Origin: Lineus longissimus
Lineage: Eukaryota > Nemertea > Pilidiophora > Heteronemertea > Lineidae
Length of the DNA stretch: 64,000 nucleotides
Direction: 5' to 3'
Assembly (NCBI RefSeq): GCF_910592395.1
Contig: NC_088321.1
Location: 124,001-188,000, forward strand
This document shows positions 63 to 45,752 of this stretch, piece after piece. Both the position numbers and the translations under genes were made by a program. Each line of letters opens with the position of its first letter. Within the stretch, counting starts at the first letter, position 1. The notes beneath the pieces are model-generated. The model saw only the letters and a program-made list of their open reading frames with translations, made no database searches and was not told where the DNA came from.

Positions 63-227
63 CCCTCTTCTTGATTCTAGTACGCCAAGGTGATCCACTT
101 TAACCCTCTTCTTGATTCTAGTACGCCAAGGTGATCCACTTTAACCCTCTTCTTGATTCTAGTACGCCAAGGTGATCCACTTTAACCCTCTTCTTTATTC
201 TAGTACGCCAAGGTGATCCACTTTAAC
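63..227 (+). repeat. 41-bp minisatellite x4 containing a 3' splice site
   Basis: Each 41-bp unit holds the pyrimidine-rich tract, the CTAG acceptor and the first 24 nt of the TDRKH exon (TACGCCAAGGTGATCC...). Acceptor AGs end at 80, 121, 162 and 203. Only the last joins uninterrupted coding sequence; entry at the first gives an in-frame TGA within the next unit. Confidence 0.95.
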
Positions 228-3200
228 GAAGGTGATATTGTCGCTGCCCCCTTCCCATATGACAGCTCCTGGTACCGCGCCCGTATCACTAAGACACCTG
301 AGGGTGACGACATAGACTTGTTCTATGTGGACTATGGTGATACTGGCACCGTTCACAAGGAGAAAATACGACAAATAAGGTGAGTCTGTGACGAGCTGAT
401 TTACTCAAACAAATGTGGTATGATCATAAAATTTGGGTGAACAGCTCTCTAACAGTGATCGTATTGATCAATAGGTAACCGACTATGCCACCGAATGATA
501 ACGTAGGGCTACAATAGCGGTCGATCTGAGAATATAAGACAAGTGAGCTTCTCGGATAATTGGGCATGTCAGTAAATGTTGATGCTTTGACCTAATTATT
601 CTCTTTCCAGGAGTGATTTTCTTAGTCTTCCTTTCCAAGCAGTCGAGGTTTGCCTCGACAATGTGACCTCTCGAGACGAGCAATGGTCAGAGGAATCGTT
701 AGACTTATTTGAAGAGATCACTGCACCGGGAAAATGGAAAACGTTAATGGCACGCACAAAAAGTTTTAAAGGGACGAAAAACGGTTCTATACCATGTGTG
801 GAGTTAGTCGACACTAATGGTTCTGAGGTAAGATTATAGGTGGCGTTCTCTCATTGATTGACAGAAACCTGAATCAATGTTGTGGTTCTGAGGTAAGACT
901 ATAGGTGGTGTTCTCTCATTGATTGAAAGAAACCTGAATCAGTGTTTGTTTACTATCTGTTTCACTTTTCAATTGCTTCCTTATTTGTTGATATCAAGAT
1001 GTAAACACAGCACGCGGACAGATTCTCGATTTGCTCTCTCTGATGAGCTGGGACAAATCAGATACATCCAGTCTAGTTTAAAAATGTGACACAGGTGGAG
1101 CTGCTGATTACAATGTCACCATTTTCATATTTGATTGTTTCAGGACGTATACATAGCACAGAAACTTGTTGATTTGGGATTTGGCGTCTTTGATGAACCA
1201 GCCAAGAGTGCTGATACGTCCACTGTAGTTGAGAATGGTGACACAGGGGGAGCCACTGAAGAGGTAGAAACGAGCACGGTAGATTTCAGTACCGCTGAAA
1301 GTGAGTGCTTGCCACGCCTGCTTTTCTTGTAGTTAGAGGACAGTGATTGGTCAGAGTCTGGCCGGACATCATTACACTGCGTTTTGAGAAAACAAATCTG
1401 AATTTGCCACAAAGAAAATGATGATGGGTAGCCTCAGAATGTGCTTGAGAGCTTTCCAACTCATGTCAGCTGATTGTTTTCATATTCTAAAAATTGATGG
1501 AAGCATTTCTTGTCCCAAGCTTGGCAATGGAGATGTACCATGATAACATCGTCCTGGATCCAGGACAGGATCCAGGACGATGCTAACTTATCAAACCATG
1601 TCAGAGTTGATGTCAGGCTCTGAACAGTTACTGTAACCATGTCAGAGTTGATGTCAGGCTCTGAACAGTTACTGTAACCATGTCAGAGTTGATGTCAGGC
1701 TCTGAACAGTTACTGTAACGTGAAGGTGGGCCTCGAGTTATTTACATCGCTGATGATTCATTCTGCTATCATCGCGTTCACCCTGTCTTGGCCCACCATG
1801 TGTTGTCTGTCTGCTGGCTAACTGTCCTTGTCTTGTCAGACTAACCAGCTTAGCTTGATTACTTGGGCTTCATTCATTCCCTTGCTTTAATAAAGCTTCA
1901 TTCTAAGTGTCCTGTTTTCATTTCATCATTCTTGTTTATGTTGATATCTTGGCATTCGAATGTTCCTTTAAGCTTTATTTTGGTGATGATCAGTGGGGGA
2001 ATTGTATCTGGTTGTCATGGACTTTAGACCCAGCGGATCAGCTCTATGTCCATGGTGAATACCTTTCCTGAGATTGGGGACTTTCTATATTTGGCAAGAT
2101 GTTGGTTTTGGGTGGTTGTGGGTCTTCTCCAGTATGGATTAAAGACAGTACACTTGGTGATATGTTGTGTGGCTTGGATATGGTAAAGTAAGGTCCCTTC
2201 AGAGAAAAGAGAAGAAATTGTTCATTGCTGGTTATTGAACCTCAGAAACTTTGGTGACTAATTCAATGTCTCAAGGTCAATTCTTCATCACAGTGATGTT
2301 TCTGCTTCTACAATGAGAAAGAAAGCAACACCCTGTATTACCTCTCTACGGACCGTGTCTGCCTTATCTAATAAGCTCTGTCAGATGAGCATGAATCCAT
2401 AACAAAACCTTCTTCAATGAGCTGATGACTCAGAAATGGGAGGTCAGCACCTCTGTTGACGAAGTCTTTACGAGATGTTATTGTGTTGATGTTAAGCCAC
2501 CACACGCTGCATTCCTTCCAGGAATGTTGATGTTTCTTTGCACCTAAAGTTTAAATCTTTGATTGAATGCCAAGCCATTGTTGTATGTTTTCTGTAGTAA
2601 CCTCTCCATTACTTGCAGGTCACCGTCATGCATTCCGTGTAAGTTTGAGATTTAGATTCGGTTGGGTGCCTAACCTTGATTTTGTCCCGGGATGCCTGCA
2701 GAAAAGTGTTGTATGGTGCATGACATGGGAGAGGGTGTTGGGCTGCCTTACCGATGCTACATGGATGTTTTTGTCATAAGAGATGACGGCATCAGTAACA
2801 AAGTGTTGTTCACGATGCATTTTTCTGCTGGTATAATTCAGATAGTCCCACAAACCCATTCCATTTGACTGGAGAAGTGAATGCTTCTAAATATCTGCAT
2901 ACAGACCTACTCTACCTTGGTGATCATTCCCCATGAACAACTCTACCTTATCCCCCATTGAAGAATCACCAACAAGCACATGTACATAATAACGTCTCGA
3001 CATAATCAACGTGAGCACAGAGTGCATGTCCTCAACCACTGACTCATCAACTGGACTGGTTGTTCTATGTGGTCACATGACCCCTCTGCACCTGATGAGG
3101 GGATTGCTTCGTATCAATGTGCTCATCTGACCTCGGTGCCTGTCACCCTTGAGGTCATGGGTTCAACTCTCAGTCAGTACACCTTCTCATAGGATAAAGA

Positions 3201-3439
3201 GGATGCCTCTCTCTGACAGCACAGGCTTCAACATTACATTACAAATTAATAGAGAGGTCTGCCCTGGGGACACTTGACCTATTGTCAGCTCACTCATGTT
3301 CTCTCATTGTATACTGAAGGCAAACAGTGACCACATGTAAACTTTCTCTTCTTTCTATTTTAAGGATGAGGGGCGGTATAAAGATCGATTGATCGTACAG
3401 CAGGTCATGGATTTCGGACGCCTTGAGATTGACACGTGA
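204..3439 (+). CDS. TDRKH: Tudor and KH domain protein (TDRKH-like), 3' part
   Basis: Partial gene; the 5' exons (KH domains expected) lie left of the window. Exons seen: 204-379, 611-827, 1144-1300, a possible 20-nt microexon 2619-2638, and 3365-3439 ending in TGA. Junctions 379/611 (split Arg codon) and 827/1144 (phase 0) are clean. The first exon encodes a Tudor fold with GDIVAAPF, SWYRARI and FYVDYGDTG, containing the aromatic-cage residues that bind methylated arginine. The second begins SDFLSLPFQAVEVCLDN, the usual extended-Tudor continuation, and the third carries YIAQKLVDLGFGVF. In known animals TDRKH binds PIWI proteins on mitochondria or in germ granules during piRNA maturation. Family assignment rests on the Tudor sequence; another Tudor-family member is the main alternative. 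Exon 1144 can reach the last exon directly only through weaker phase-0 donors after 1263 or 1278. Its strong donor after 1300 needs the microexon. Three minisatellites touch exon edges of this gene. Confidence 0.85.
818..947 (+). repeat. 65-bp tandem duplication containing a 5' splice site
   Basis: Two copies starting at 818 and 883. Each has the exon end TGGTTCTGAG followed by the donor GTAAGA and about 50 nt of intron. The copies differ at several bases. The first donor, after 827, is the one in frame with the TDRKH exon. Confidence 0.93.
1547..1582. repeat. Perfect 15-bp inverted repeat
   Basis: The arm CATCGTCCTGGATCC at 1547-1561 is followed after 6 nt by its exact reverse complement at 1568-1582, giving a short hairpin in the large TDRKH intron. 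No function is evident. Confidence 0.85.
1595..1717. repeat. 41-bp minisatellite x3 (intronic)
   Basis: Three nearly identical units starting ACCATGTCAGAGTTGATG at 1595, 1636 and 1677, within the long TDRKH intron. They do not touch an exon. Confidence 0.92.
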
Positions 3440-3695
3440 CCATGGATATCTTCATGTTTAGCGGACGTTTGGAAACCAACACGTGACCATGGATATCTTC
3501 ATGTTTAGCGGACGTTTGGAAACCAACACGTGACCATGGATAGCCTGATGTTTAGCGGACGTTTGGAAACCAACACGTGACCATGGATAGCCTGATGTTT
3601 AGCGGACGTTTGGAAACCAACACGTGACCATGGATAGCCTGATGTTCAGCGGACGTTTGGAAACCAACACGTGACCATGGATAGCCTGATGTTTC
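3434..3695 (+). repeat. 47-bp minisatellite across the TDRKH stop codon
   Basis: Units start at 3434, 3481, 3528, 3575, 3622 and 3669 (last partial), each beginning ACGTGACCATGG. The first unit holds the last codon ACG and the TGA stop; the rest lie in the presumed 3' UTR. Units vary between GATATCTTC and GATAGCCTG. Confidence 0.93.
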
Positions 3696-4622: not shown

Positions 4623-5186
4623 CATCAACTTATCATCATACCACAAGAAACATATTCGCTTAGTGATTCCGCCGTGGGAAAACACAGAAGCACATAATGA
4701 CTATTGAGGAAGAAAAGGGCAGACCTTCCTCGCGTCCCGATATAGAAAATGCCTCATCCCAAATCCCAACAGACGACCTTGGCCCTATTGGCCGCTGTCT
4801 TCTGCCCATCCTGAATAAAAATATAAAAATATGGCTGTCGATCTCATCACAGCTATTTTCTGGTTTACTCCAGAATCCTGAAAAATACCGACCTCTCGCT
4901 ATAGAAAAGGTCTGTATAACGTTTCCATGACTTCAGGTGACCCATTATTGAACAGGCCTAAGAATACCCACCTGAAACCATGGAAACTGCATTAAAGCTC
5001 AATGTTGCTTACACCCTTCAAACAAAATGAGCATGACCCAAGTAAGTAGTTTACATGGAGACTGGGAAAGACCATTTTAGATTTCAGGTAATTCCATCTC
5101 ACTGTCACCCTTTCAAACAAGATGAGTATGACCCAAGTGAGTGACTTTGAGAGAGACTGGGCAAGTCCATTTTAAATTCAGGTAGT

Positions 5187-8100
5187 TTATGTACTGTCAC
5201 TCAACAATCTGACATTTTCTGGTTCCCCATCGCTGCTTGGACTAGGCCGTCGGTTGTTCATAGATGCTGTGATTCCATTGGTTGTCACGACTACTATCGG
5301 TACATCGTTATTTATTGTATTGTCAGCTGTGTCCAAGTCTTTATCCTTAGATTTTCTGATGACCTGGAAACAAAAGAACAATTTCAAAATATGTTGATCA
5401 CCAATTTTGAAACACCTGGATTTAGAATGAACTGCGCTCTACAGTGTAACTGTACCATGCACCAGTGGAGCCTTGTTTTGAATTCAGCTGTTATGTGAGG
5501 CGACTATAACGCTTTGTAGATTTGGCTGGTCCAATACACGCTATGGTCTCTGTAGGTTATAAGCACTCACCGCTTCACCTTTCCATATCAATCTGAATTC
5601 TCTCCGATATATGCTGATGCTGAACACTGTGATTAAGGTGAAGGGGACGAGGTAGAGAAGGGCAGGTTGGCCAATCTCCATAAATATGAGCGCACAGAAC
5701 GTCACCAGGAGCCCGAGACCATATGCTGAAAACATAACCATTGATACAACATGAGCTGTGAGTGAAGTGTGCAGGCAGACTCTTGAGTCTCTGTCTATCA
5801 TGAAGACATACATTAATACGCTTACATTGTACACCATGTCCTGCTACCTGCATACAATAGGCCTTACATTGTACACCATGTCCTGCTACCTGCATACAAT
5901 AGGCCTTACATTGTACACCATGTCCTGCTATCTGCATACAATAGGCCTTACATTGTACACCATGTCCTGCTACCTGCATACAATAGGTCTTACATTGTAC
6001 ACCATGTCCTGCTATCTGCATACAATAGGTCTTACATTGTACACCATGTCCTGCTACCTGCATACAATAGGTCTTACATTGTACACCATGTCCTGCTATC
6101 TGCATACAATAGGTCTTACATTGTACACCATGTCCTGCTACCTGCATACAATAGGTCTTACATTGTACACCATGTCCTGCTATCTGCATACAATAGGCCT
6201 CAGATACCTGACAAATCAGATCCAAAACAAAAGAACAACGCACACTCGAACACTTCTATAGGCCTAAGCTGACTTCAGACAATGCCAAAAGCTACTGTGA
6301 GCCTTTGTTCAAGTTGAAAGATGGTTAGAGAAGTTGCCTGGGTCGGGGTTGAATATTGGAGGCACCATTCCTTGCTGAGTTTGTCCCAATTAATAACATT
6401 ATTCACTGGACAGACTTACCAACGGGAGACAGACTTACCAACAAGAGTCGCCATGAAGTAAATGCGACATCTGCTCTGCACTCTGAGATCAAAGCCATGG
6501 ATGTAGGAGATGAGGAGACCTGGAATAAAGAGATTAGATTATACCATGGTTCATTCATGGGGCTGCATGGTCAAGTCATTTACGGCATCCACGACTTACC
6601 AGGTACGAGGACATCTCCAAATCCCAGCAGAGAGTAAGGAATATGGCAAAGAGCAATATCGGTCTTGATGAAGCGCGGTACCTTCAACACCATGGGGAGC
6701 TGTTCTCCCGTCGTGCTGCCCTGGCCGGTTGCCACCTGAACCATGATACTCTGCTTGCCCTGAAGGTACAACACATCAAGGGAGTATTAGAGATTGTTGA
6801 TATGGAAGAGCCAGTGGCCACCTGAACCATGATACTCTGCTTGCCCTGAAGGTACAACACATCAAGGGAGTATTAGAGATTGTTGATATGGAGGAGCACC
6901 CAAGCACCTCAGAAACTTAGGCTTGTATGTAAAATGGCACTATTACCAACTAACATGACTCATCAGGCCTTCGTTTGAGGTCACAGACGCTGAGTGTTAA
7001 CCTTTTACAACATTAGGACAGAAGTCCTTTGTCAAGAAGTACATATCAAATCCCGCAGCTTCTCATGTGACCTACCTTGGTGATCAGAGGCGTGATGAAG
7101 ACGAAGAAGATATCATAAACGAACAGCAACAAGAGGAGGATGGTACACGCCTGAAAAGAAACAAACACAGTTTGAACGTTTCCACCAAGCTTCTTGTTCA
7201 ATCTTATCGTGTGCCACATTCAAGAACTGACTCTTCTCCTGCATGAGGAAAATGGGAGTATGATTGAATTCATCAGCCGTCTGCTTTCATGGTTGCCCTG
7301 GTTTTCAACAGAGACCTGGTTGAAACTAGACACAAACATGCTGAGATATATCCACAGCAATGTACACAGCAATGTACACAGCAATGTACACAGCAATGTA
7401 CACAGCAATGTACACAGCAATGTACACATTGTTGTATTATCTACCAGGCAACCAAGATGGCAGACGGCTGGTGGCTTTGATCAATTGGGTACCTCTCTTT
7501 ATAGGAGTTCTATTGGCAGTAATGTTTGCTTCTAAGATGTTTAAACCTATTTTGCTACGAACCTTCAGGTTGGGAAGTCGGATTGTCTTCATCATGTGGA
7601 CACAGAATACTATCCCAAGGAAATCCTGCAGCACCCAGGCATATCTGAAAGGTCAAAGGTTGGAGATCATCACCATAGCAACACAAAAATATCTTCCAAG
7701 AAAGCAAAGCACACATAACCAACAAAAACAGTGTAAAAGTAGTGCCACCTACTGCCACCTACTACTGCCACTGAGCTATATAGGCAGGGTATATGAAAAA
7801 GCTGGATCATTGGAAGGCTGGATTACCTGGATTGTGCCTCATGATCACCACCACCTTGATGGATTGCAAATGCCCAAATCACAGGGATAGGCCTACACTA
7901 CAGTACACCATGCAGTGCTAGCTAGAGCAGCACGAGGCTGAGTATTGCAACTAAACGATAGGCCTACTGGTAGGCCTACACTACAGTTCACCATGCAGTG
8001 TCAGCTACTGCAGCTGAGGATGCGCATACGATGTTAATACATAGGCCTACATCGTACTCCTTTGACATGTTTGAATGCCTCTGCTCAGTACAAGTGCAAG

Positions 8101-11100
8101 GGATAAGGCACCAATCTCTATACACATGGATATCATCCATTCCAGGCAGTGGTGATTCACGAGTTACAATCCAGTGATTCCAGCAGTCCAGCTTTTTCAC
8201 ATACCCTAGGTGGCACCTCACTTATGCCTCATGTACTCACCCGGCCTTCCTCTCGATCGCCCACCAGATCACTTATACCTCATGTACTCACCCGGCCTTC
8301 CTCTCGATTGCCCACCACCTCACTTATGCCTCATGTACTCACCCGGCCTTCCTCTCGATCGCCCACCAGATCACTTATGCCTCATGTACTCACCCGGCCT
8401 TCCTCTCGATCGCCCACCAGATCACTTATGCCTCATGTACTCACCCGGCCTTCCTCTCGATCGCCCACCAGATCACTTATGCCTCATGTACTCACCCGGC
8501 CTTCCTCTCGATCGCCCACCACCTCACTTATGCCTCATGTACTCACCCGGCCTTCCTCTCGATCGCCCACCACCTCACTTATGCCTCATGTACTCACCCG
8601 GCCTTCCTCTCGATCGCCCACCACCTCACTTATACCTCATGTACTCACCCGGCCTTCCTCTCGATCGCCCACCAGATCACTTATACCTCATGTACTCACC
8701 CGGCCTTCCTCTCGATCGCCCACCAGATCACTTATACCTCATGTACTCACCCGGCCTTCCTCTCGATCGCCCACCAGATCACAACAGCAGAACAGCAGAA
8801 GAACAGCACAATGTTCCTGATCTCAGGACGAGATGAGAGAATTGGGATCTTGTTAGGAGGCAACCTGAAAAATACAATTGACCTCTCTAATCAGGACACC
8901 TCTCTATTAAAGACAGCACTTGTCAATCTCGAGGGTGTCCTTAATAGAGAGGTTCTACTGTTCAATAACTCCTGAACATTTTCAACTGACTTTCTGAGTC
9001 AATTTATAGGAAATGACTAGGTTATCTTGCTCACCAACGGTTTCAGGCAGCCATGCCCAAGATGAAGGGAGGGGTTGGTGTAGGTGATTGGTGTAGGGAT
9101 ACTCACTGTTTTGTACAGATAGGAATCTTGGCCACCACGGGCTTCAAGCAGTTGAGGGAGGGGTTGGTGTAGGCGATTGGTGTAGGGATACTCACTGTTT
9201 TGTACAGATAGGAATCTTGGCCACCACGGGCTTCAAGCAGTTGAGGGAGGGGTTGGTGTAGGTGATTGGTGTAGGGATACTCACTGTTTTGTACAGATAG
9301 GAATCTTGGCCACCACGGGCTTCAAGCAGTTGAGGGAGGGGTTGGTGTAGGCGATTGGTGTAGGGATATTCACTGTTTTTTACAGATAGGAATCTTGGCC
9401 ACCACAGGCTTCAAGCAGTTGAGGGAGGGGTTGGTGTAGGTGATTGGTGTAGGGATACTCACTGTTTTGTACAGATAGGAATCTTGGCCACCACAGGCTT
9501 CAAGCAGTTGAGGGAGGGGTTGGTGTAGGTGATTGGTGTAGGGATACTCACTGTTTTGTACAGATAGGAATCTTGGCCACCACGGGCTTCAAGCAGTTGA
9601 GGGAGGGGTTGGTGTAGGTGATTGGTGTAGGGATACTCACTGTTTTGTACAGATAGGAATCTTGGCCACCACGGGCTTCAAGCAGTTGAGGGAGGGGTTG
9701 GTGTAGGTGATTGGTGTAGGGATACTCACTGTTTTGTACAGATAGGAATCTTGGCCACCACGGGCTTCAAGCAGCCATGGAGAGCAATGCAAGAGGCCAG
9801 ACAGAAGAGCCCAATCACTGCGTACACTGAAACAACAAAGTGATGATATCCATTTTGATTTTCAACGTCACTAATGCGACCACCCTGGTAACGCGACCAT
9901 TCAACCTCGGTCCCATGAGTGGTCGTGTTCCACTGTATCTCTCGATGACCATGTTCTGTAGAACCATTTATAAACCTATTGACATGACCATTCATCGGCA
10001 AGGTCTCAAATAAGCACTTTTGGACGGCACCTTCAGTAAACCTATTACAAGTTTCTTACCCAAATAATCATAAAAGAAATAAAGTGCCAACAGCATGCCG
10101 ATAATCAAGATGACAAAGAATATGACAGCCAGTGGACTGACATCCAGTGTTTCCACTTCCTCAGAGGTGTCCGGTCCCTCTTCTTCATCTCGGCGCGGCA
10201 TACCAGCCGTCAACTTGTTCTTTAGATATCTGGAAGGTTGAACATGAGAGTGGTGACTGACGAGAACACACATTGACAGTTCAGCTTCAGCACAATATCT
10301 TAAAGATGAAATCAGAATATGTTTACGCATTCAGGCAGTCAGCTCAAACCGCTATCGTCAGGTTGCAATGACATCAAAAATATCATAATACTTCAAACTT
10401 TAAGGTCAAGGTCAAACTCCAGGTCTATGGGGAGGAGAATTCTGTGGCTAAAGTCATGTAAGAAATATCATTACAAGGTTTTTCTAATGATAAATGATTT
10501 TCATCATCAACCCAAACTTTTCCGAGTTCACAAACCCTAACATACTGTTGATGTTTGTTGACTCCCGCCCAATATGCTCCGATGAAGATTGTAAACACCG
10601 CCATTATCCAGATGAGAATCAGGTTATAATCAACACGACTGGCTGTTGCTTGGAATAACTGCAGGTTCAAGTCTGGCCCAAGTGACTGAAAAAATACAGA
10701 GTTTACATGTACATGTAGCTTATGCTGTAAAAAATACAGAGACTTTACATGTACATGTAGCTTATGCTGTAAAAAATACAGAGACTTTACATGTACATGT
10801 AGCTTATGCTGTAAAAAAATACAGAGTTTACATGTACATGTAGCTTATGCTGTAAAAAATACACCGAGTTTACATGTACATGTAGCTTATGCTGTAAAAA
10901 ATACAGAGACTTTACATGTACATGTAGCTAATGCTGTAAAAAATACAGAGACTTTACATGTACATGTAGCTTATGCTGTAAAAAAATACAGAGTTTACAT
11001 GTACATGTAGCTTATGCTGTAAAAAATACAGAGTTTACATGTACATGTAGCTTATGCTGTAAAAAAATACAGAGTTTACATGTACATGTAGCTTATGCCG

Positions 11101-14100
11101 TATACCAATGATGATGAGAACATTTTAATGTGACCCTACATGCCCTAGGCAAGTCGCTTTACTTCAATTCCTCTGACCTTAACCCTGTACAAGTATCTGC
11201 CTTCCTGCCTAAGACATAGTAAGACAACACAAACTGGCGCCCAACCATGGTGGCATGCAACGAATGCCCACAAGAACACGCCGTGGAAAGTCTTGTACAA
11301 AAGTTGAGGCTTAATTTCAACCCCCTGAACGACCCTGGGGAAGAATGGGCATTATGAGCAAGGAATATTACCTTTAATTGGTCGTAATCTTCCTTAGTTA
11401 TCATTGCAACAGTCATGTTGATGTTCGCGTAATCAGAGAGATTTGTCGCTCCAGGAGGAAATACCTAAAATGGGGAGATATTAAACACGTTTATCCAAAG
11501 CCAAATGGTCACCTGCTCTGTTGAAACTCTGGGGTTCAGATAGAGAGCGACACACAGACAGTGACACACAAGCTGATTGTGTATACAATGACCAGATACA
11601 GAGCTACACACAGACAGTGACACACAAGCTGATTGTGTATACAATGACCAGATACAGAGCTACACACAGACAGTGACACACACGCTGATTGTGTACACAA
11701 TGACCAGATACAGAGCTACACACAGACAGTGACACACAAGCTGATTGTGTATACAATGACCAGATACAGAGCTACACACAGACAGTGACACACAAGCTGA
11801 TTGTGTATACAATGACCAGATACAGAGCTACACACAGACAGTGACACACAAGCTAATTGTGTATACAATGACCAGATACAGAGCTACACACAGACAGTGA
11901 CACACAAGCTGATTGTGTATACAATGACCAGATACAGAGCTACACACAGACAGTGACACACAAGCTGATTGTGTATACAATGACCAGATACAGAGCTACA
12001 CACAGACAGTGACACACAAGCTGATTGTGTATACAATGACCAGATACAGAGCTACACACAGACAGTGACACACAAGCTGATTGTGTATACAATGACCAGA
12101 TACAGAGCTACACACAGACAGTGACACACAAGCTGATTGTGTATACAATGACCAGATACAGAGCTACACACAGACAGTGACACACAAGCTAATTGTGTAT
12201 ACAACGACCAGATACAGAGCTACACACAGACAGTGACACACAAGCTAATTGTGTATACAACGACCAGATACAGAGCTACACACAGACAGTGACACACAAG
12301 CTAATTGTGTATACAACGACCAGATACAGAGCTACACACAGACAGTGACACACAAGCTAATTGTGTATACAATGACCAGATACAGAGCTACACACAGACA
12401 GTGACACACAAGCTGATTGTGTATACAATGACCAGATACAGAGCTACACACAGACAGTGACACACAAGCTGATTGTGTATACAATGACCTTTAAAATGAT
12501 GTTGGACACAGGAATGACATTCGATGACATATTCATTCCAGATGGGCAACTAGTAACACTTTAAATTTGAATTATTTCCAGAAGACCTTGTCCAAAGGTA
12601 ACCAACTTAGTGTGAAAACCACAGTCATACAAACTTCTCTTCTTTTTCACTCAACTCTAACAACCTCTAACATGAAACAGCTAAGAAAGGGACAACTTGG
12701 GTGTGGGATTTTCTTAGCAGAGTCATTATCCTCCTGACCAGGTGAATACCACGCCCAAGTTGGTCCTTTAAGAAACCAACCAGGAAGTTCATCACCAAGA
12801 CAATTCTCGCGTGTCTTTTTCTTACCGTTCCATTCATGTTGATGACAATCATCGCCGTCGCATTGTCATTGTAAACATTGTATGCTTTGTCAGAGAATGA
12901 ACAATTGCCTCGCTTCACAACGACCACTTTGTCCTCGAGCTGCACAGATATCGAGGATGCCTCACAGCCAAAACTTGACATGAGGTCGGCCATTTTGTGG
13001 ACAGGCTGAAAAGTAAGCACAGTATTGATTAAGTACCATGGGGGGAGGCACTGCGGACACCTCTCTATCAAGGACACTAGTTTCGGTCCTAATTGGCGGT
13101 ACCCTTTGAATTTGACCTCTCTAATCAGGACATTTCTCTATTAAGGACAGCACTTGTCAGTCCTGAGGGTGTCCGTAATAGAGCGGTTCTAATGTACTTT
13201 ATTTTCTAAATTCCTGGTATATTTCAAAGAATTTTCTGGCATACAAGGTTGAGAGGAGCATGCCTGGTCTGTCAGTCTTTGGACGGGTCTGGGTCTTGCT
13301 CTGTCGTGTCTCAACCAGAGCATCCAGAGACGGAGGACACTTACTGCTTCTTCCTGATTGGTTGGTAGGTCCTGAAAGCTTGGGTTGTACGCCAAACAGA
13401 ACTTGTGGCCAGCCGAGTCATTATACTTCACGCTTGCCAACAATATCCCATAGTCACACGAGACCTGGAAGAAAATTGGATTTGAAAGAAATCATGGAAT
13501 GGAATGGAAACACCTGTCAACGCTGAGGTTCGAGTTCCCTTTGGTGATGAAATAAACACAGGAGTGTGAAGTTTAAGTCAAAACCCACATCGAAGAAATG
13601 CAGAAGGTACTTTTTTCTTCTCCTGTGAGCAAAAATTTGTACGAGCATTTATTGGATGTCGGTAATTTGACCTAACCTTCACGCTCCTGTGGAGATACGG
13701 GAGGGCTACTCATCTTTGACAGCATAGTCTAGCTCCAGGACAGGAATCGAGATAGGAATCAAGGGCTGGGTAACAGTAACACCTGCTGCGAATCCCAAGA
13801 GTAAGAATCACGGGCATCGTAACGGACCGTCCACGACATCAGGGAAAAGACTTTTACCTTTGCAGTAATCGCGGAAGTGAGTACTTGGTCTTAGATTTGA
13901 ACCGAGTTTACTTTGATTTCACCTGACCTGAGTTGTTATTCCTTTTACATGCAGTGTTCATGCACTTTGCAGAAAGCTTGCTGCAGTGCCAGTGACAGTG
14001 TGCAAGTGTCACGTGAGTACTTAACTTTAAACTTAGTCGCACTTTAGGCCCAAGTAACTAGTAGGCCTACATGAAGTAAAATTCGGATAAAATTCTTACC

Positions 14101-14156
14101 ATAGAGATAAATGAAACACACACAAACAACGACAAACTATTCGAGAATCTCTTCAT
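5187..14156 (-). CDS. SPPL2: Signal peptide peptidase-like 2 (intramembrane aspartyl protease)
   Basis: Complete, 14 exons in minus-strand order: 14156-14100, 13464-13345, 13005-12826, 11464-11372, 10685-10546, 10229-10060, 9826-9730, 8864-8751, 7644-7563, 7150-7076, 6759-6600, 6519-6439, 5725-5571, 5363-5187. The sum is 1701 nt (566 aa) and every junction keeps frame. The N-terminus MKRFSNSLSLFVCVSF is a signal peptide. Residues ~60-150 hold a protease-associated domain (KVVVVKRGNCSFSDKA). The nine-helix GxGD protease core follows, with catalytic Asp364 in VYDIFFVF, catalytic Asp425 in LLGFGDVLVPG and the PAL motif in GQPALLYLVP at 477-479. The family cleaves type II membrane-protein stubs in endosomes and lysosomes. 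SPPL2a and SPPL2b are vertebrate duplicates, so I do not choose between them. Exon 9 uses a weak donor (GTTCGT). Several exon edges sit inside minisatellites. Confidence 0.95.
5821..6200. repeat. 42-bp minisatellite x9 in SPPL2 intron 12
   Basis: Units CTTACATTGTACACCATGTC... start at 5821, 5863 and on. Two unit variants, with CTACCTG or CTATCTG, alternate through most of the array, suggesting expansion of an 84-bp dimer. Because 42 is a multiple of 3, long spurious reading frames appear on both strands. Confidence 0.95.
6411..6448 (-). repeat. 19-bp duplication of a 5' splice site
   Basis: On the minus strand SPPL2 exon 12 ends GTTG|GTAAGTCTGTC, and 19 nt later the same GTTG|GTAAGTCTGTC occurs again. 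Use of the second donor would add 19 nt and shift the frame; the first gives the conserved join to exon 13 (AYGLGLLVTF). Confidence 0.92.
6731..6902 (-). repeat. 86-bp tandem duplication containing a 3' splice site
   Basis: Copies start at 6731 and 6817. Each carries, on the minus strand, the acceptor CTTCAG|GGCAAGCAGAG and the first nt of SPPL2 exon 11. The copy nearer the coding body (exon start 6759) continues into the exon; the other is a decoy. Confidence 0.93.
7355..7429. repeat. 12-bp minisatellite x6 in SPPL2 intron 9
   Basis: Six copies of CAATGTACACAG. Frames through it give repeated VHSN, TAMY or CTLL peptides on both strands, which are artefacts. Confidence 0.95.
8208..8782 (-). 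repeat. 51-bp minisatellite x11 containing SPPL2 exon 8 donor
   Basis: Each unit, read on the minus strand, has about 30 nt of the end of exon 8 (GATCGAGAGGAAGGCCGG) and the strong donor GTGAGTAC. The used donor follows position 8751. Reading past it in frame gives GGG TGA at once, so downstream copies cannot be used productively. Unit variants differ at CAGATC/CACCTC and TATGCC/TATACC. Confidence 0.95.
8879..8963. mobile_element. Short Tigger/pogo-like MITE copy, family 1
   Basis: Inverted ends ACCTCTCTAATCAGGACACC and GGTGTCCTTAATAGAGAGGT flank a short centre, ending in TTCTACTG. It lies just upstream of the SPPL2 exon 8 acceptor. The same ends occur at 13053, 42023 and 50322. Confidence 0.65.
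9062..9775 (-). repeat. 89-bp minisatellite x8 containing SPPL2 exon 7 donor
   Basis: Each unit holds, on the minus strand, the last ~45 nt of exon 7 (AAGCCCGTGGTGGCCAAG ... ACAAAACA) and the donor GTGAGTATCC, then intron. The used donor follows 9730; read-through gives CAG TGA, a stop. One unit has GATATTCAC, a weakened donor copy. Confidence 0.95.
9848..9940. mobile_element. Tigger/pogo-like element end, family 2
   Basis: Second copy of the element seen near 4158, again with CCCATGAGTGGTCGTGTT running into CCACTGTA. It lies in SPPL2 intron 6. Internal sequence is lost. Confidence 0.5.
10686..11096 (-). repeat. 38-40-bp minisatellite x10 abutting SPPL2 exon 5 acceptor
   Basis: Units of TTTACATGTACATGTAGC plus TTATGCTGTAAAAAATACAGAG. 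On the minus strand each contains CTGTATTTTTTACAG, which looks like a 3' splice site, and the array runs straight into the true acceptor (TGTATTTTTTCAG before 10685). It is rich in palindromic ACATGTACATGT. Confidence 0.93.
11539..12489. repeat. 56-bp minisatellite x17 in SPPL2 intron 3
   Basis: Units GATACAGAGCTACACACAGA... with few variants (CTGATT/CTAATT, CAATGACC/CAACGACC), consistent with recent spread of unit variants. It does not overlap an exon. Confidence 0.96.
13053..13196. mobile_element. Tigger/pogo-like MITE copy, family 1
   Basis: Left end CTGCGGACACCTCTCTATC, right end GGTGTCCGTAATAGAGCGGT then TCTAATGTA. It sits in SPPL2 intron 2. The internal ACCTCTCTAATCAGGACA block is shared with the copy at 8879. 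Confidence 0.65.
13692..13905. repeat. Dispersed ~210-bp repeat, copy 1
   Basis: From GGAGATACGGGAGGGCTACT to GAGTACTTGGTCTTAG, found again at 24715-24915 with scattered substitutions and small indels. It lies in SPPL2 intron 1. No terminal repeats or tRNA boxes are obvious. Confidence 0.85.
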
Positions 14157-15421: not shown

Positions 15422-18400
15422 ATGGAGATCGACTTGGCAGATGATCCACCGAGCCCTGGTGTGTTCGAGGAGACAAGTCACACTGTGGCGGAGATGGTGG
15501 ATGTTCCATCGGAAACTGATGTGGTGGATGCTGGTGTAAATAAGACAGAAGAAGATGAAACTGAGAAGGCAGATGGTGAAAGAGTAAAGGAATCAGTAAA
15601 GGAGAATGATAGAACCATCAATGAGAGTAGTTTAGATAACTTTAAGACAGGTCAGTAAATTGACATCATCTATCAACTCTTTGAAGACATGATTGTTGTC
15701 AATAGCCAAGATCTAGCTGATAACTTGGAAGAAGGTCCATTGGATTTGTAGGTGGTCAGCAGTTGACTTTGCATGGTACATAGATCAAAGCCAAAGGTAG
15801 TCAAAGAGTTTAAAAAGTTAAATTTGATGCCAAACAGGTTATGAAAGCTGCCAATTATATTAAGGATAACAATGCCGCTTTGCAGTGATCGGGGAAATTG
15901 ACTTGAATAGACCGAGGTGGATTTAGTGGCGACAGTATCAGAACTCTTCAAATGAGTTTAAAGTGAATTAAAATTGCATAGATTGAATTTGCAGATGTGG
16001 AGATTGCTGACATTGACCCAGAAGTTGTGAAGAAACTAACCAAGGGCTTCCTGAATGCATTCTTACCCGAGGGAGAAAAGGCCAAGGTCACCTTGGACGA
16101 ATTGTTGTGAGTATTCTTTGTCTTTGATGTTGTAACCTGAACGTCTCTGTTGATCCTTGCCGTTAACAACAGAAGAGTGATGACTCGGGTACCACCTTGT
16201 TTCATCCACCAAGTAGACTGTTCCTTGCCGTTAACAACAGAAGAGTGATGACTCGTGTACCACCTTGTTTCATCCACCAAGTAGACTGTTCCTTGCCGTT
16301 AACAACAGAAGAGTGATGACTCGTGTACCACCTTGTTTCATCCACCAAGTAGACTGTTCCTTGCCGTTAACAACAGAAGAGTGATGACTCGGGTACCACC
16401 TTGTTTCATCCACCAAGTAGACTGTTCCTTGCCGTTAACAACAGAACAGTGATGACTCGGGTACCACCTTGTTTCATCCACCAAGTAGACTGTTCCTTGC
16501 CGTTAACAACAGAAGAGTGATGACTCGGGTACCACCTTGTTTCATCCACCAAGTAGACTGTTCCTTGCCGTTAACAACAGAACAGTGATGACTCGGGTAC
16601 CACCTTGTTTCATCCACCAAGTAGACTGTTCCTTGCCGTTAACAACAGAACAGTGATGACTCGGGTACCACCTTGTTTCATCCACCAAGTAGACTGTTCC
16701 TTGCCGTTAACAACAGAAGAGTGATGACTCGTGTACCACCTTGTTTCATCCACCAAGTAGACTGTTCCTTGCCGTTAACAACAGAAGAGTGATGACTCGG
16801 GTACCACCTTGTTTCATCCACCAAGTAGACTGTTCCTTGCCGTTAACAACAGAAGAGTGATGACTCGTGTACCACCTTGTTTCATCCACCAAGTAGACTG
16901 TTCCTTGCCGTTAACAACAGAAGAGTGATGACTCGGGTACCACCTTGTTTCATCCACCAAGTAGACTGTTCCTTGCCGTTAACAACAGAAGAGTGATGAC
17001 TCGGGTACCACCTTGTTTCATCCACCAAGTAGACTGTTCCTTGCCGTTAACAACAGAACAGTGATGACTCGGGTACCACCTTGTTTCATCCACCAAGTAG
17101 ACTGTTCCTTGCCGTTAACAACAGAAGAGTGATGACTCGTGTACCACCTTGTTTCATCCACCAAGTAGACTGTTCCTTGCCGTTAACAACAGAAGAGTGA
17201 TGACTCGTGTACCACCTTGTTTCATCCACCAAGTAGACTGTTCCTTGCCGTTAACAACAGAAGAGTGATGACTCGGGTACCACCTTGTTTCATCCACCAA
17301 GTAGACTGTTCCTTGCCGTTAACAACAGAACAGTGATGACTCGGGTACCACCTTGTTTCATCCACCAAGTAGACTGTTCCTTGCCGTTAACAACAGAACA
17401 GTGATGACTCGGGTACCACCTTGTTTCATCCACCAAGTAGACTGTTCCTTGCCGTTAACACCAGAAGAGTGATGACTTGGGTACCACCTTGTTTCATCCA
17501 CCAAGTAGACTGTTCCTTGCCGTTAACAACAGAAGAGTGATGACTCGTGTACCACCTTGTTTCATCCACCAAGTAGACTGAACGCTGCGCAATCTTGCCA
17601 ATCAAGAGTGTTGTCTTTGTCTTACTTGTTGGCCCGGAGTTAAGCCTGCTCTGCCAACCACAATCCTCACCTCCCACTCTCTTTCAGACAAAACCAAAAG
17701 GTGCTTATTGAGACAGTCCAACATGAAAGGTCAAAGTTCACTGAGTGCACTGCCTTCACGGACCTCACAGAGATGGTAGGTTGAAACTTTAGTCTGTTTT
17801 CTGGTGAGCAAAATAAGCCTCAAGCAGAATTTGGCGAGAATATGCTGGTGTGGCAAGAAAGTGCTGTCTCTATGAGAGGTCTTGGTGTGCTTTGGCAGTG
17901 CCTGAGAGTAGATGACATGGAATTGGTTGATAATCTGACAAGTGGACACTAGAGGCACACAGGTGCTGTCTCTATGAGAGGTCTTGGTGTGCTTTGGCAG
18001 TGCCTGAGAGTAGATGACATGGAATTGGTTGATAATCTGGCAAGTGGACACTAGAGGCACACAGGTGCTGTCCGTGAACAACGCTACAACAATATGCAGT
18101 AAGACTTTGTTTTCAGTTATTGACTTGGCCGGAAACCTGTTACCAGAGGACTGGAGGTTATAATCATTGCTGACCAATCTTACAGCTGACGCTGACGCTG
18201 TAGCAACTCCTTCTTTAAGTCATTGTTCTCTTCTTCAGATGAACCAAGCCAGACAGTATTACAACAAACTGGTGACCGTCAAAAAAGACATGGCTGCTCT
18301 TCACGAGAAGTCAGTTAAATTAAAGGTAAATCCATTTTTTGGACAGGTTCGAGTCCAGCCTGTATATGGATTGTTCCCAAAAGCTTTGTTACCAAGCGGT

Positions 18401-18814
18401 GATTCAGAGTTCATAAGTTGGACAGAGCCTTTCATTCACCATCCTTGCTATACCACCTTTGACGTTTGTTATTGTAGTGTGTTTTGAGCCTGGTTGCTGA
18501 AAAGGCTTTTAGGTCAGCAGTAACCTGCTTTACCGGGAGGTGTTAACACGACCGACTATTGCATTCAGATTCTAGTCCAGCAGTAACCATCTTTACCGGG
18601 AGGTGTTAACACGACCGACTATTGCATTCAAATTCTAGTCAGAGATGTTTTTTCTTTCCAGAAACGAGCGCTGCGCCTTCAGCAGGGTAAACAGAAGGAG
18701 ATGTTACAGAGAGAACAGAAACATGAGAAAGAACTTGAAAAGGAGCGAGCGTTGATGGCTCGTCCCATCAAGAGGTCGAGCAGTCAACCACAGGAACGTG
18801 GAGGACTTGTATAG
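15422..18814 (+). CDS. BLOC1S6: Pallidin, BLOC-1 complex subunit 6
   Basis: Five coding exons: 15422-15650, 15995-16106, 17688-17775, 18239-18325, 18662-18814; 669 nt, 222 aa, all junctions in frame. The start is MEIDLADDPPSPGVFEE. An acidic, low-complexity N-terminus of about 75 residues precedes the conserved pallidin helix-rich body. Diagnostic stretches are LDELLQNQKVLIETV, ARQYYNKLVTVKKDMAAL, KSVKLKKRALRLQQ and a charged coiled coil ending ARPIKR. BLOC-1 is a cytosolic complex that makes lysosome-related organelles and sorts endosomal cargo; pallidin also binds syntaxins. The human protein is 172 aa and ends close to the RPAKR point; here about 12 more residues (SSSQPQERGGLV) are encoded by the first unit of a minisatellite that also supplies the TAG stop. 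Intron 2 holds a 1.4-kb minisatellite. Confidence 0.93.
16142..17580. repeat. 68-bp minisatellite x21 in BLOC1S6 intron 2
   Basis: Units CTGTTCCTTGCCGTTAACAA... with two bi-allelic sites, GAAGAG/GAACAG and CTCGGGTA/CTCGTGTA, mixed along the array. It lies between exons 15995 and 17688 without overlapping either. Confidence 0.96.
17861..18075. repeat. 102-bp tandem duplication in BLOC1S6 intron 3
   Basis: Two copies beginning GTGCTGTCTCTATGAGAG at 17861 and 17963, followed by the start of a third at 18064. Confidence 0.92.
18515..18640. repeat. 63-bp tandem duplication in BLOC1S6 intron 4
   Basis: Copies of CAGCAGTAACC...GCATTCAGATTCTAGTC start at 18515 and 18578, just before the acceptor of the last exon at 18662. 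Confidence 0.9.
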
Positions 18815-19040
18815 ATGTTCTCTTCCTTATGGTGTCAACCACAGGAACGTGGAGGACTTGTATAGACGTTCTCTTCCTTATGGTGTCAACCACAGGAACG
18901 TGGAGGACTTGTATAGACGTTCTCTTCCCTATGGTGTCAACCACAGGAACGTGGAGCACTTGTATAGACGTTCTCTTCCCTATGGTGTCAACCACAGGAA
19001 CGTGGAGCACTTGTATAGACGTTCCCTATGGTGTCCACTG
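18785..19040 (+). repeat. 51-bp minisatellite x5 across the BLOC1S6 stop codon
   Basis: Units begin CAACCACAGGAACGTGGA at 18785, 18836, 18887 and on. The first unit encodes the last residues QPQERGGLV and TAG; later units are in the 3' UTR. GGAGGACTTG changes to GGAGCACTTG in the last units. Confidence 0.94.
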
Positions 19041-20172: not shown

Positions 20173-20246
20173 AGTGCTTTCCTCCTTTATTTCTCACTTA
20201 TGTTATCTTTTGGTACTCTTGTACCTTTTATTAAGGTCTGAGTAAT

Positions 20247-20284
20247 AAAATTCATTCATTCATTCATTCATCATTCATTCATTC
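20247..20284. repeat. (ATTC)n microsatellite tail
   Basis: ATTC repeats directly after AATAAAATTC. Lengths vary among units: short in the third and fourth, long (about 12 repeats) in the second at 21413-21461. The AATAAA-then-simple-repeat end looks like a retroposon tail. Confidence 0.88.
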
Positions 20285-23200: not shown

Positions 23201-24714
23201 CAGTTGCATGCTTATTCCTAGAGATGGCGCGACAATAGGAGAGTAAAAGAACTACGCCATCGCCATCTTCAGGGCAAGGTAGAAACTGAAAATTGCGTTT
23301 TGTCTTTTCAGTGTCTACCTTGCCCTGAAGATGGCGATGGCGTAGTTCTTTCATGAAGTCAATGAGACTCCGAAAACCAGCTCAAAGAGATCTGAAATGA
23401 TAAAGATTTAGTCCGAATCAGCACAAAGTGTGGTTGATTTTGACCTGGTTTAGTTAACACCTTCAGCGCCGAACCAAAACGAGGTCTGTAAAGTCTTTGG
23501 TCTGTAGAATAGAGCCTGCCCTCCTGATGATGGCCATCGCCATCTTCAGGACAATGTAGGAACTGAAAAGACCAAACAATATTTTCACGGTATTTTCAGT
23601 TCCTACATTGCCCTGAAGATGGCGATGGCGTAGTTCTTTCATGAAGTGCTTTCCTCCTTTATTTCTCACTTATGTTATCTTTTGGTACTCTTGTACCTTT
23701 TATCAAGGTCTGAGTAATAAAATTCATTCATTCATTCAAAAAGCACCCAACTATTGTAAAATAATCAGGGACCGTTACGGTTTCCAATGGCAAAAACATT
23801 TCCCTAACGATATAACGGGGGACAATTTGACTGGGGTGCAATCTGAGAACTGTCGGGGGAAGTGGGGGGTGGGGAGTTGTCCAGATATCGACTCAGACGT
23901 AGGCATTCAAGTCGATGGTTGTGACGCCCATAACTGGTTTCAAAAAGTGATTGAGGACATTTCTTTCACAATGCGTGTCATCAAGTTGATCATCACGATG
24001 GCGAATCTTGGGAAGACGAAATCAGCCCCTGTAGTGTCAAGACTGTAACCGTCGCCCAAAAACCAATTTCCACGCAAAGTATCGAATCGATTCTTGAGTC
24101 CGTCCCCAGTAGCCCCTCTAAAGTTAGAATGGCAAAGTTACTGACCCCGTGATAATCTAGTCCAGGTAGAGGAGATACCACTCGTCATGTAACAAAATTG
24201 ATTCAGTAAAACTCAAAATGTCCTGGTATGATAGACCTTTAGAACGGAGACGCAACGGCACCTGAACGGGCAGAAATGCCATGGTTCGATCGCCGCGCCA
24301 TCTTTGCAAAATTAGAAGAACTGAAATTTGTTGAAAAATTGTTCAGTTCCGTGCTTATTCCTAGAGATGGCGCGACAATCGGAACAAGTAAAAATCTTAC
24401 TGTGAAGTAATCAGGGGCCGTTACGGTTTCCGATGGCACCTGGTCCTCATGGTGAGAGGTTGTGTCGTTGTCCAAGGTGTCCAGGTCAGTCTAAAGCATA
24501 GTCCAAAAGCCATCGTTATGGAATGGAGGGGACCAGTACTGCAACCGCTGTTTGTAAGCCCGGCGCTATAAACACTCTGCCGAGACTGGAACCCACTCGG
24601 ACATATTATATTCAAGTCGATGGTTGTGACGCATCGTAACTGGTTTCAAAAAGAGATTGAGGACATTTCCTTACACCAAGCATGTCATCAAGTTGATCAT
24701 CACGATGGAGTAAC

Positions 24715-27356: not shown

Positions 27357-28223
27357 TTTGAAATGTTGTCGTTGTCAGTGAAATGTAGTTACGTTCCGTT
27401 TAAGCCGATATTGAATGCAAGGAACATAGTCACAACCTGTCTCGTTGATATTCCATCAACGAGATCGAGTTAGTTAGTTAGTTCGTTAGTTAGATCGATT
27501 TAGTCATCCTGGGCACTCCATCGAGTTTCCCTTCTTGGATCCGAACATTGAACACCCAGGGTATGGTAGACCTTTAGAACGGAGTCGCAACGGCACCACT
27601 GATCGGGCAGAAATGCCACGGTTCGATCGCCGCGCCACCTTTGCAAAAATGAAAGAACTGAAATTTATTGAAAAATTGTTCAGTTCTACCTTATTCCTAG
27701 AGATGGCGCGACAATCGGAACAAAGTAAAAAGCGCCCAACTGCTGTAAAGTAATCAAGCCTCAAGAGCCGTTACGGCTTCCGATGGCACCTGGTACTCAT
27801 GGTGAAAAGTTGTGTCGTTGTCCAAGGTGTCCAGGTCAGTCTAAGAATGGCCCACAAACCATCGTTAAGGGAATGGAGGGACCAGTACTGCAACAGCTGG
27901 TTATAAGCCCGGCGCTCGAACACTCTGCCGAGCCTGGTACCCATTTCCTCCTGGGATGAGAGAAGCAAGTAAGGAGGATACGATATGTACGGTGCTGGTG
28001 ATGCCAACGCTGTTTCGTGCCTCCCTATTCGGCGGTCATGCCCACTTTTTGCCTCAATAGAGAGAAAATATTCCATCAAACATGGAGGTAGAAAGCAATT
28101 AAGTGTGTTATAATATCATGTCTTTGGAAACGGAGAGAAGTCACATCGTTAAAACGGAAGCGTTGGAAAGATCGTCTTTCAGTATATTTTGCGCATCGAC
28201 CACAACAATAAGTTTTCTAAAAT
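27357..28223. promoter_or_regulatory. Head-to-head intergenic region of LSM7 and MCCC2
   Basis: Start codons are 868 bp apart. Most of the gap (27566-27960) is a solitary diverged copy of the 19.6-24.7-kb block unit, so the real promoters must lie in the short flanks, about 200 bp on the LSM7 side (with a GTTAGTTAGTTAG microsatellite near 27467) and about 260 bp on the MCCC2 side. No TATA box is assignable. Confidence 0.5.
27566..27960. mobile_element. Solo copy of the block element without its insert
   Basis: Starts TAGACCTTTAGAACGGAGTC like the block units and runs through GAGATGGCGCGACAATCGG, then goes directly to AAAAAGCGCCCAACTGCTG, skipping the ~510 bp of hairpins and ATTC tail. Its downstream part (GTGTCGTTGTCCAAGGTGTC...AAGCCCGGCGCT) matches the fifth block copy near 24450-24560, not the four full units. 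Confidence 0.8.
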
Positions 28224-32924
<4,701 letters not shown>

Positions 32925-34230: not shown

Positions 34231-37200
34231 TCACGGTAAAAACGACAGCAGAGTTTTAGTTTTCTTTTTCTTCACTAAAGGCGTGTTAATGACTTGGAAA
34301 CAGTCGGTCACACTCTTACGGCAGTATTTGAAGAAGAGACGTTCAGCTTGGTTCAGCACAAGATCAAGGTCCATATTTTTTGACAAACTGAAAATACAAA
34401 AATAAACAATTTGAAGTGTTTGTGATGTCACTACCATCCTTTGAACCAAATCCATGACCGTTTTCTAGCATTTTCATTTATCTTCCAAACACGTTTGCCG
34501 CATTGCCATTGGCCAGATGTTCTAAACATTACTCCTGGTGAGCTTAGGCCTTCTGTACCTACCTACTGAGCTTGGGCCTTGTCTCTTCTGTACCTACCTA
34601 CTGAGCTTAGGCCTTGTCTCTTCTGACTGAGCTTAGGCCTGTCTCTTCTGTACCTACCTACTGAGCTTAGGCCTTGTCTCTTCTGTACCTACCTACTGAG
34701 CTTAGGCCTTGTCTCTTCTGTACCTACCTACTGAGCTTAGGTCTGTCTCTTCTGTACCTACCTACAGAGCTTAGGCCTTGTCTCTTCTGTACCTACCTAC
34801 TGAGCTTAGGCCTTGTCTTTTCTGTACCTACCTACTGAGCTTAGGCCTGTCTCTTCTGTACCTACCTACTGAGCTTAGGCCTTGTCTCTTCTGTACCTAC
34901 CTACTGTGCTTAGGCCTTGTCTCTTCTCTACCTACCTACTGAGCTTAGGCCTTGTCTCTTCTCTACCTACCTACTGAGCTTAGGCCTGTCTCTTCTCTAC
35001 CTACCTACTAATGCACTGGAAGACTGTCGACGGATCATCACACTGAAACAGTCGGTTGCGATGATCCATTAATATCGCCACACACATAAACAATTCAAAC
35101 GTAAACTCTGCTCGTGATGTGACAGCTACTGGTCTTGTCTTCCCTCCTGAAAGAAAACACACCATCATCAAATCATTCAGCAGGCATTGTATATCAGAAT
35201 AAACAGATCAGCTGTGGACTGAGGAGATCGCCAAAGGGGTCTCTACAATTCTTGAGGTTCTTGGCGTAGCCGATGGTCAACACACAAACTGCAACTGACC
35301 ATTTGGCCCCCTTACTTGCCAATAGTCCTCGTTTGATATTCTCTGATACGGCAAGCCAAATATCTTTTGTTAAAAGATGATGAGAGGATGCCGACAGGAG
35401 AAAGGTGAATGATGAAACAAACATCTCACCCTGTGTTTCGTAATCTTTGCGTATTTCCTTTAACCGAACCTGCTCGGCCGCCATCGATGATAGCTCTAGA
35501 TGATGACTGCTCAGGATTTCAAAACATCGGAGTGAATTGTCAAAATCAAACTCCCGCTTGAACCCAAGTAACAGCCACCTGGAAACAAATAATATATCAT
35601 TTAGATGGCATCTCACCAACTCTTCCAGACAGGAAAAGTTGCCGCAGGCTGAAATAGAAGCCAGGACTAAGTTTCAAAGCCTTGCTATGATAAGCCGAGG
35701 GAACCTACTGCACTCACTACTCATCAACATCAAAGTCCACTATTCACCAGAATGAGATCCACCAGTAGCATAGGACCAGATCATGTTGACACGACAGAGT
35801 CAACAGCATTCGTCAACAGAACAGGACTGCCAAGATCACATGTGCAGACATACTTACTTGTGGCTGAACATCAGATCGCCGACTTCACACTGCTCGTCAA
35901 GATATCTGAACAGCTCAGGGTCAAGTTCTATTAACAATTGTCGCATTAAGTCTGAAGCAAGAAGAGACAGAAAGCTGAAGAGATCTGAGCAGAATGTAAA
36001 GGTCCTTGTAGACCCCGAGTAGACTCGGTTCAATTGACACTAGCTTACGATGGACTTCTCCCCTGGCCTAAGTCAGAGTCATGAGACTAATCCCCGACTG
36101 CCACTTAAAAATACTTAAGATCAGGTGCAGCTAAAAATAAAAGCTGTTGAAGGAGTTGAACCCTCGACCTCTTCATTGTCAAGGATGCGACGGTGTTTTG
36201 TGTAAGGCACTGTACATTTTGAGTATTCAGCCAAGTGCAGGCATAGCTCAAGGATCCTGTGGTAGGTCCTGGACAACTTACAGATTGATTATCATTGCTT
36301 GACTGACTCTTGACGACCTTATCATACCCAAGTGGATAGAAGAAGTAGAAATCACCTACCAACTTTTTCTATCATTCCTTCCTCCAAAAACTCCAGCTGA
36401 ATCTTCGCCATGTATTCATTAAAGCACCAGTAGGCCTCCACCTCGGACCCGAACACAACAAGGAAACGACACACTATGTCGTTCATGCCCTGTGTGTAAC
36501 CAATATCAGGGTGGAATGCTGCGTACGTAATCAGCATATCTCGTAATGAATTCAGGGTGTGACTTCCACCTTCCCTGAATCAGAGAAAATATAAGTTATT
36601 TCTCTTTCCTTTGTTGAGAAAGTTTGAAAAGATGTCAAATATTTGGGCGGGAAGTACAGGAACTGTGTGATGGCCTTTACCTGATAGTTTCGTAGTCCCT
36701 ATCCGTCCTCGGTACATCTCTATCGATGACCCGAACATATTCTAGCAGTTCTTTCATTGGTGTCAATGGTTGGCGCTCAGCGAATATCTTTGCTTGTATA
36801 TCAAAGTAGTCTCTCTGTTGAGCATCGACAGGACTAGAAGAACATTGTTGTGGAGGAGGGCTGGCTAGATCTAATGGCAGGTTACTGATATAGGAGGCTG
36901 TGATACCAACTTCCTCCGGGTCGACTGAAAAACCAACAGAGATTTTTAGATTGTTGCCAGAATTCACGGCAATAGTTCCATTGCTGGGCGTCAACTGGAA
37001 TGGATGAAGGTGGTGTTGGGGCAGGGCTGAAGATCGAAATGCAGTGTCCTTTTGAATTTAGATAGGTTTTCACTGAAGTTAGTCTCGTATCAACAATAGC
37101 CAGTTGTTATCTTTTCACTTTATCCTGAAATATCTTGATACCTTGAATCAAAACTCAGATAAGCAGCTCAATCACCACGGCAACCAGAGCATTCCTGACC

Positions 37201-45735: not shown

Positions 45736-45752
45736 CATCTCACCGGCAGTAT

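Follow-up and report, generated by a model that had tools for sequence, protein, structure and literature searches.

The 64-kb window analysed here comes from Lineus longissimus (Nemertea) and holds, among other genes, TDRKH, SPPL2 (signal peptide peptidase-like 2B), BLOC1S6 (pallidin), and a TBC1D16-like gene, in which short tandem arrays lie across splice sites and stop codons (Table 1). The RefSeq proteins SPPL2B, TBC1D16-like, and TDRKH of the same species match the spliced models. The SPPL2 translation, of 566 amino acids (aa), is the unchanged C-terminal part of RefSeq SPPL2B (575 aa), which has nine more residues at the N terminus. The TBC protein is identical to RefSeq TBC1D16-like (456 aa; P0121), and the part of TDRKH within the window (214 aa) is the unchanged C terminus of RefSeq TDRKH (502 aa; P0229) once a 20-nt microexon at 2619-2638, revealed by the RefSeq protein, is included. 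A TDRKH model lacking the microexon ended in a read-through stop and was ruled out by RefSeq TDRKH. The names BLOC1S6, LSM7, and MCCC2 were read from Pfam matches (Snapin_Pallidin, LSM, and Carboxyl_trans, respectively) and are not database names. One further spliced gene and one single-exon open reading frame (ORF) had no Pfam match, and "LAMP-like" and "receptor" serve only as labels for them. The gene models are incomplete, in that introns of untranslated regions (UTRs) and possible genes in 43.2-59.5 kb are left out of the counts given below.

To take stock of the repeats we used Tandem Repeats Finder (TRF), which at a score of at least 50 gave 39 non-overlapping rows; the 36 rows with a unit of at least 10 bp were kept as the array set, and three microsatellites of 3-4 bp were left out. 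Eight of the 36 arrays contain a splice site or a stop codon flanked on both sides by 5 nt or more, or six of the 36 when only splice sites are counted, stop codons not being exon edges. The edge is confirmed by a same-species RefSeq protein for seven of the eight, while for the BLOC1S6 stop the basis is the ORF with its Pfam Snapin_Pallidin match. The original prediction had listed nine arrays or duplications whose unit contains an exon edge. All nine exist at or near the places given, eight of them as TRF arrays and the ninth, at the SPPL2 exon 12 donor, as a 15-bp exact repeat that TRF did not call even at score 30. A tenth array had been said to abut the SPPL2 exon 5 acceptor, and it was indeed found to end 3 nt away.

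Table 1. Tandem arrays, duplications, and genes discussed in the text (coordinates are positions in the window; CDS, coding sequence)
Feature	Position	Strand	Basis and remarks
41-bp x 4 array, TDRKH acceptor of exon 204-379	63..227	+	TRF; 24 exonic nt inside; RefSeq
65-bp x 2 duplication, TDRKH donor of exon 611-827	818..946	+	TRF; 10 exonic nt inside
47-bp x 5.6 array, TDRKH stop (3437-3439)	3432..3694	+	TRF; just the last 8 nt of the CDS inside, stop codon counted in; stop confirmed by RefSeq TDRKH
95-bp x 1.8 diverged duplication near SPPL2 stop	5012..5184	-	TRF, 82% match; absent from the original prediction
15-bp exact repeat at 19-bp shift, SPPL2 exon 12 donor inside	6409..6442	-	No TRF row
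86-bp x 2 duplication, SPPL2 exon 11 acceptor	6724..6897	-	TRF; 36 exonic nt inside
51-bp x 11 array, SPPL2 exon 8 donor	8218..8782	-	TRF; 32 exonic nt inside
Diverged partial copy of SPPL2 exon 7	9018..9055	-	Local alignment score 21
89-bp x 8 array, SPPL2 exon 7 donor	9066..9774	-	TRF; 45 exonic nt inside
42-bp x 10 array, 3 nt from SPPL2 exon 5 acceptor	10689..11102	-	TRF; abuts, acceptor not inside
51-bp x 4.7 array, BLOC1S6 stop	18783..19024	+	TRF; last 32 nt of the CDS inside, stop codon counted in
35-bp x 13.5 array, TBC1D16-like exon 8 donor	34550..35009	-	TRF; just 5 exonic nt inside
TDRKH gene, 3' part	204..3439	+	Exons 204-379, 611-827, 1144-1300, 2619-2638, 3365-3439; RefSeq match
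SPPL2 gene	5187..14156	-	14 coding exons; RefSeq match
BLOC1S6 coding exons	15422..18814	+	ORF and Pfam Snapin_Pallidin match
TBC1D16-like gene	34231..38215	-	9 coding exons; RefSeq protein identical

Two of the shorter features need comment. The exon 12 donor repeat is the longest of just four exact direct repeats of at least 12 bp found outside the TRF rows (score at least 30) in a scan over shifts of 10-150, with low-complexity words dropped; five Markov sequences scanned as a control gave a mean of 0.4. For the diverged duplication near the SPPL2 stop (about 93 bp), the TRF row ends 2 nt before the stop codon (5187-5189), and the alignment reaches 5200, through the stop codon and 11 coding nt.

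To determine which copy of an edge can serve the gene, the six TRF-called splice arrays were spliced in silico at each copy, in steps of one unit. In all six, every copy except the one attached to the exon led to a premature stop; for the TBC array, where the fixed 35-bp step loses register, this test is exact for the first steps only and the splice strings of the copies are not comparable. At exon 8 of SPPL2 the distal copies gave an early stop even though the 51-bp unit preserves the frame. At the TDRKH acceptor only the AG of the last copy left the frame open; in a product spliced at any of the three others, residue 17 is a stop. The RefSeq proteins match what the proximal copy would give, which bears out the earlier suggestion that the copy next to the exon still works. 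Because the distal copies lead to early stops, the extra copies act as intron or 3'UTR.

The copies mostly carry the same splice sites. The two copies at the TDRKH donor have identical splice strings, as have those at the SPPL2 exon 11 acceptor; the donor 9-mers are identical in 11 of 11 copies at SPPL2 exon 8 and in seven of eight at SPPL2 exon 7, and the TDRKH acceptor copies differ by one to three letters. The choice of site at these arrays can hardly rest on site strength. We infer that at the RNA level it follows proximity to the exon, in agreement with the annotated proteins.

Repeats of this kind are already known from amphioxus, where intron gain from them was also proposed (PMC3087553). 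The "mirage" minisatellites were named there in Adh3 and later reported in the globin genes BflGb6 and BflGb9 (PMC3087553), and PGBD5 and troponin C have been added to the list (PMC3902484). Their units run from 10-72 bp in Adh3 to about 160 bp in the globins (PMC3087553, PMC3902484). In amphioxus the unit crosses an exon-intron boundary, at donors as well as acceptors, as it does in the L. longissimus window. Here, the unit spans such a boundary in the six splice-site arrays and in the 15-bp repeat, and the normal protein is encoded through one copy, judging from the RefSeq proteins and the frame test. The nemertean case differs in phylum, in having several arrays within one window, in extending to stop codons, and in reaching up to 13 copies. 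The amphioxus data are said to suggest that regular splicing is undisturbed, and Adh3 array lengths to vary between haplotypes and somatically (PMC3087553); such splicing and instability data belong to amphioxus, whereas the L. longissimus arrays are known from one assembly.

We consider it probable that the arrays are "mirage"-type minisatellites, produced by random short duplication and filtered by selection. Short tandem duplications, with units of about 10-100 bp, would arise in this genomic region from local and mostly unrelated sequences, often with a few base pairs of homology at the joint, and some of them would then expand in steps of one full unit, by slippage or unequal exchange. 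Selection would remove the duplications inside coding sequence, as their absence there suggests. Those across a splice site or a stop codon would survive, since the exon-attached copy could still make the full protein while the others become intron or 3'UTR; the basis for this step is reading frames and RefSeq proteins rather than RNA. The arrays would in this way lengthen introns and 3'UTRs and leave behind rows of mostly identical splice sites whose use would not give the normal protein.

The window provides some detail on how such arrays may form. In 24 of 29 rows, edge and non-edge arrays alike, the total array length departs from an integer multiple of the unit by -5 to +8 bp, a range that is wide for the shortest units and says little about them. 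The 29 rows comprise the 19-bp repeat and 28 of the 36 TRF arrays, with eight left out and TBC measured on a sub-stretch. Ten of these rows exceed whole units by 3-8 bp, while by our estimate only about 5% of random joints would reach 3; short homology at the duplication joint is therefore likely. When the 27 arrays whose unit is at least 30 bp are compared, just two groups are clearly related, both outside gene space (defined below as within 500 bp of genes), and the next best pair scores 17 against a median of 8. One group consists of three arrays (63, 70, and 68 bp) at 45751-48999 that share one unit family with other DNA between them, and the other is a pair at 62663-63643. Minisatellite units thus seem to spread locally. 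A general reservoir of old edge copies was not found, the mean z over 114 edges (older edge list) being 0.07, with five edges at z above 3.

Since exon edges are a tiny part of this DNA, the original prediction held that random placement looks unlikely. This was overstated. The correct target is the set of positions at which a unit of a given length would cover an edge, that is, the edge number times the unit length, and random placement is therefore not negligible. In our null model each array was collapsed to one unit (55.6 kb in all), and placements damaging coding sequence were excluded as a tolerance rule. The models contain 116 edges, with seven start codons not counted as usable, and 27 of the 36 arrays lie in gene space. 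As a main null, placing arrays uniformly across the entire window was set aside, since they are concentrated near genes and hits in coding sequence are not tolerated. With margins of 3 and 5 nt, the expected number of edge arrays is 2.7-3.3 in the whole window and 4.3-4.7 in gene space; about three to five of the eight straddling TRF arrays are expected by chance, and chance placement may explain as many as about half of the cases. Arrays confined to coding sequence are absent (0 of 36, against 4.0 expected; P = 0.014), and we take this to reflect selection against coding damage. To this extent the proposal that duplications at edges are better tolerated holds. Tolerance alone, however, should not be able to raise edges above introns, because introns would be free to accept duplications as well.

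Several results weigh against random duplication plus selection as a complete account. With a 5-nt margin, eight edge arrays of 36 were seen in the whole window against 3.0 expected (P = 0.008), and eight of 27 in gene space against 4.3 (P = 0.048); the excess reaches nominal significance in the majority of the versions run. Adding the SPPL2 stop array raises the contrast to nine against 3.0 (P = 0.002) and, in gene space, nine against 4.3 (P = 0.016). When two short repeats are included together with the SPPL2 stop, at a 3-nt margin, there are 10 against 3.4 (P = 0.001) and 10 against 4.8 (P = 0.013), respectively. Before the TDRKH model was corrected, splice sites alone gave six against 2.7 (P = 0.05) and stop codons alone two against 0.26 (P = 0.03). 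In one of five versions of a distance test, intronic arrays were also nearer to edges than random (median 72 against 101 bp, P = 0.042). Chance and tolerance may thus leave part of the pattern unexplained.

The P values vary with the version chosen. Gene-space P values at margins of 3, 8, and 10 nt are 0.079, 0.055, and 0.089; the weakest version, with a 1-nt margin in gene space and the older edge list, gives eight against 5.1 (P = 0.12); and over other margins and array sets P ranges from 0.001 to 0.12. In a rotation control the mean was 2.77, and 0.96% of the rotations reached eight or more. The test was post hoc, suggested by the same data, and its P values are optimistic. A two- to threefold excess of arrays at edges is possible. 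The observation of arrays at exon edges is itself real, and the enrichment is suggestive.

If the excess is taken at face value, a mutational process could be targeting exon edges, with transcription, R-loops, chromatin, or co-transcriptional splicing causing breaks or template switches that seed duplications. We regard this as unlikely. Besides the excess in the window, it would fit the signs, described below, that duplication at SPPL2 exon 7 happened more than once, and the same arrangement reported in amphioxus genes (PMC3087553, PMC3902484). Over the versions run, on the other hand, the gene-space P value extends from 0.013 to 0.12. Intronic arrays were not closer to edges than random in the other four versions of the distance test (P = 0.14-0.37; in the main version, median 85 against 101 bp, P = 0.18). 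Edge arrays resemble the others in period (median 51 against 42, P = 0.22), copy number (5.15 against 2.75, P = 0.33), and percent match (97 against 97, P = 0.73), and neither MCCC2, with its 12 coding exons, nor LSM7 has any array with a unit of at least 10 bp at a TRF score of at least 50. Duplication around AGGT words, also put forward in the original prediction, finds no signal: 15 of the 36 units contain AGGT against 11.8 expected, and on either strand it occurs in five of the eight edge units and 10 of the 28 others (Fisher P = 0.24). In a broader proposition, exon edges would be mutational hotspots where some animal genomes, those of cephalochordates and of nemerteans independently, undergo tandem duplication, and a process linked to transcription or splicing would extend introns and 3'UTRs from their borders; this strikes us as similarly doubtful.

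At SPPL2 exon 7, a diverged partial copy of the exon, in which a donor-like GTGAGC can be seen by eye, lies just outside the array, past its far end. This copy is probably older, and its position hints that one edge underwent duplication more than once. The pairing of a uniform array with a diverged copy beyond it could also mean that edge arrays are not made more often and are instead kept longer, with the constrained copy acting as a template that re-homogenizes or re-seeds the array and keeps it detectable. In favor of this, one copy in each edge array is under coding constraint. The equal percent match of edge and other arrays and the divergence of the SPPL2 stop array speak against such retention, which we think improbable.

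The rows of decoy splice sites, or the longer 3'UTRs, might themselves be selected for a role in regulating splicing or expression. At five splice edges the copies do carry a matching or almost matching splice site; among units of at least 30 bp, however, none is common to different genes, and the distal copies lead to early stops, so that we give this explanation very little credence.

Tandem arrays are a classic source of misassembly, and the copy numbers of the longest arrays may, as in general, be inexact. The longest edge array, at SPPL2 exon 7, measures 709 bp, far below the length of a HiFi read, and scattered variants distinguish the copies. In addition, the report of the L. longissimus assembly describes 79-fold coverage in PacBio long reads (HiFi) assembled with hifiasm (PMC8593623). 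Assembly error is disfavored by these data, and we consider an artifact highly improbable.

Returning to mirage-type arrays filtered by selection, we compared the window with reported routes of intron gain, one of which had been raised in the original prediction. Intron gain by tandem duplication of segments with splice signals is reported for potato RdRp (PMC4974935) and for Cryptococcus (PMC2395259). The tandem duplication of such segments is shared with L. longissimus, but its gene models show no new intron. No extra copy marks a new intron now, as the copies in SPPL2, TBC, and TDRKH fall within one intron of a model that matches RefSeq. The Rogers type of gain, in which a duplicated AGGT-bearing exon segment supplies both splice sites, was not seen at these arrays, whose copies lie in one intron or in the 3'UTR. 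Human genes in segmental duplications likewise contain variable internal minisatellites, part of them at exon-intron boundaries (PMC2812944). Half of the human repeats are in coding exons, however, and in recent paralogues new introns can arise from those at boundaries (PMC2812944), while in L. longissimus the protein is intact.

Among the literature matches listed, which cover few subscription papers, "mirage" arrays appear for amphioxus only. Of the matches listed for Nemertea together with such repeats, none contains the word nemertea; of those listed for Lophotrochozoa, none concerns such arrays outside amphioxus, judged by title and the start of the abstract. The extension of mirage-type arrays to a protostome at this density is worth reporting; the presence of several in one nemertean window suggests that genomes in which short duplications are frequent may generally carry them. 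They offer natural experiments on how the spliceosome settles on one site where up to a dozen are nearly identical, and on the lengthening of introns. They also make a point about counting, namely that exon edges are no negligible target once the unit length is included.

Two further observations were made elsewhere in the window. In MCCC2, the exon ending at 30294 is followed by a GC donor (GCAAGT) at 30295-30296, probably belonging to a GC-AG intron. At 19614-24527, a unit of about 1.13-1.18 kb occurs in some four head-to-tail copies. Of five 300-nt families found there, two have copies that agree with the reference at 90-100%, and the others give 61-99% by ungapped comparison. A repeat search found no inverted pairs of 150 bp or more; by eye only, this repeat shows internal inverted stretches and has a shorter relative near 27570-27900.

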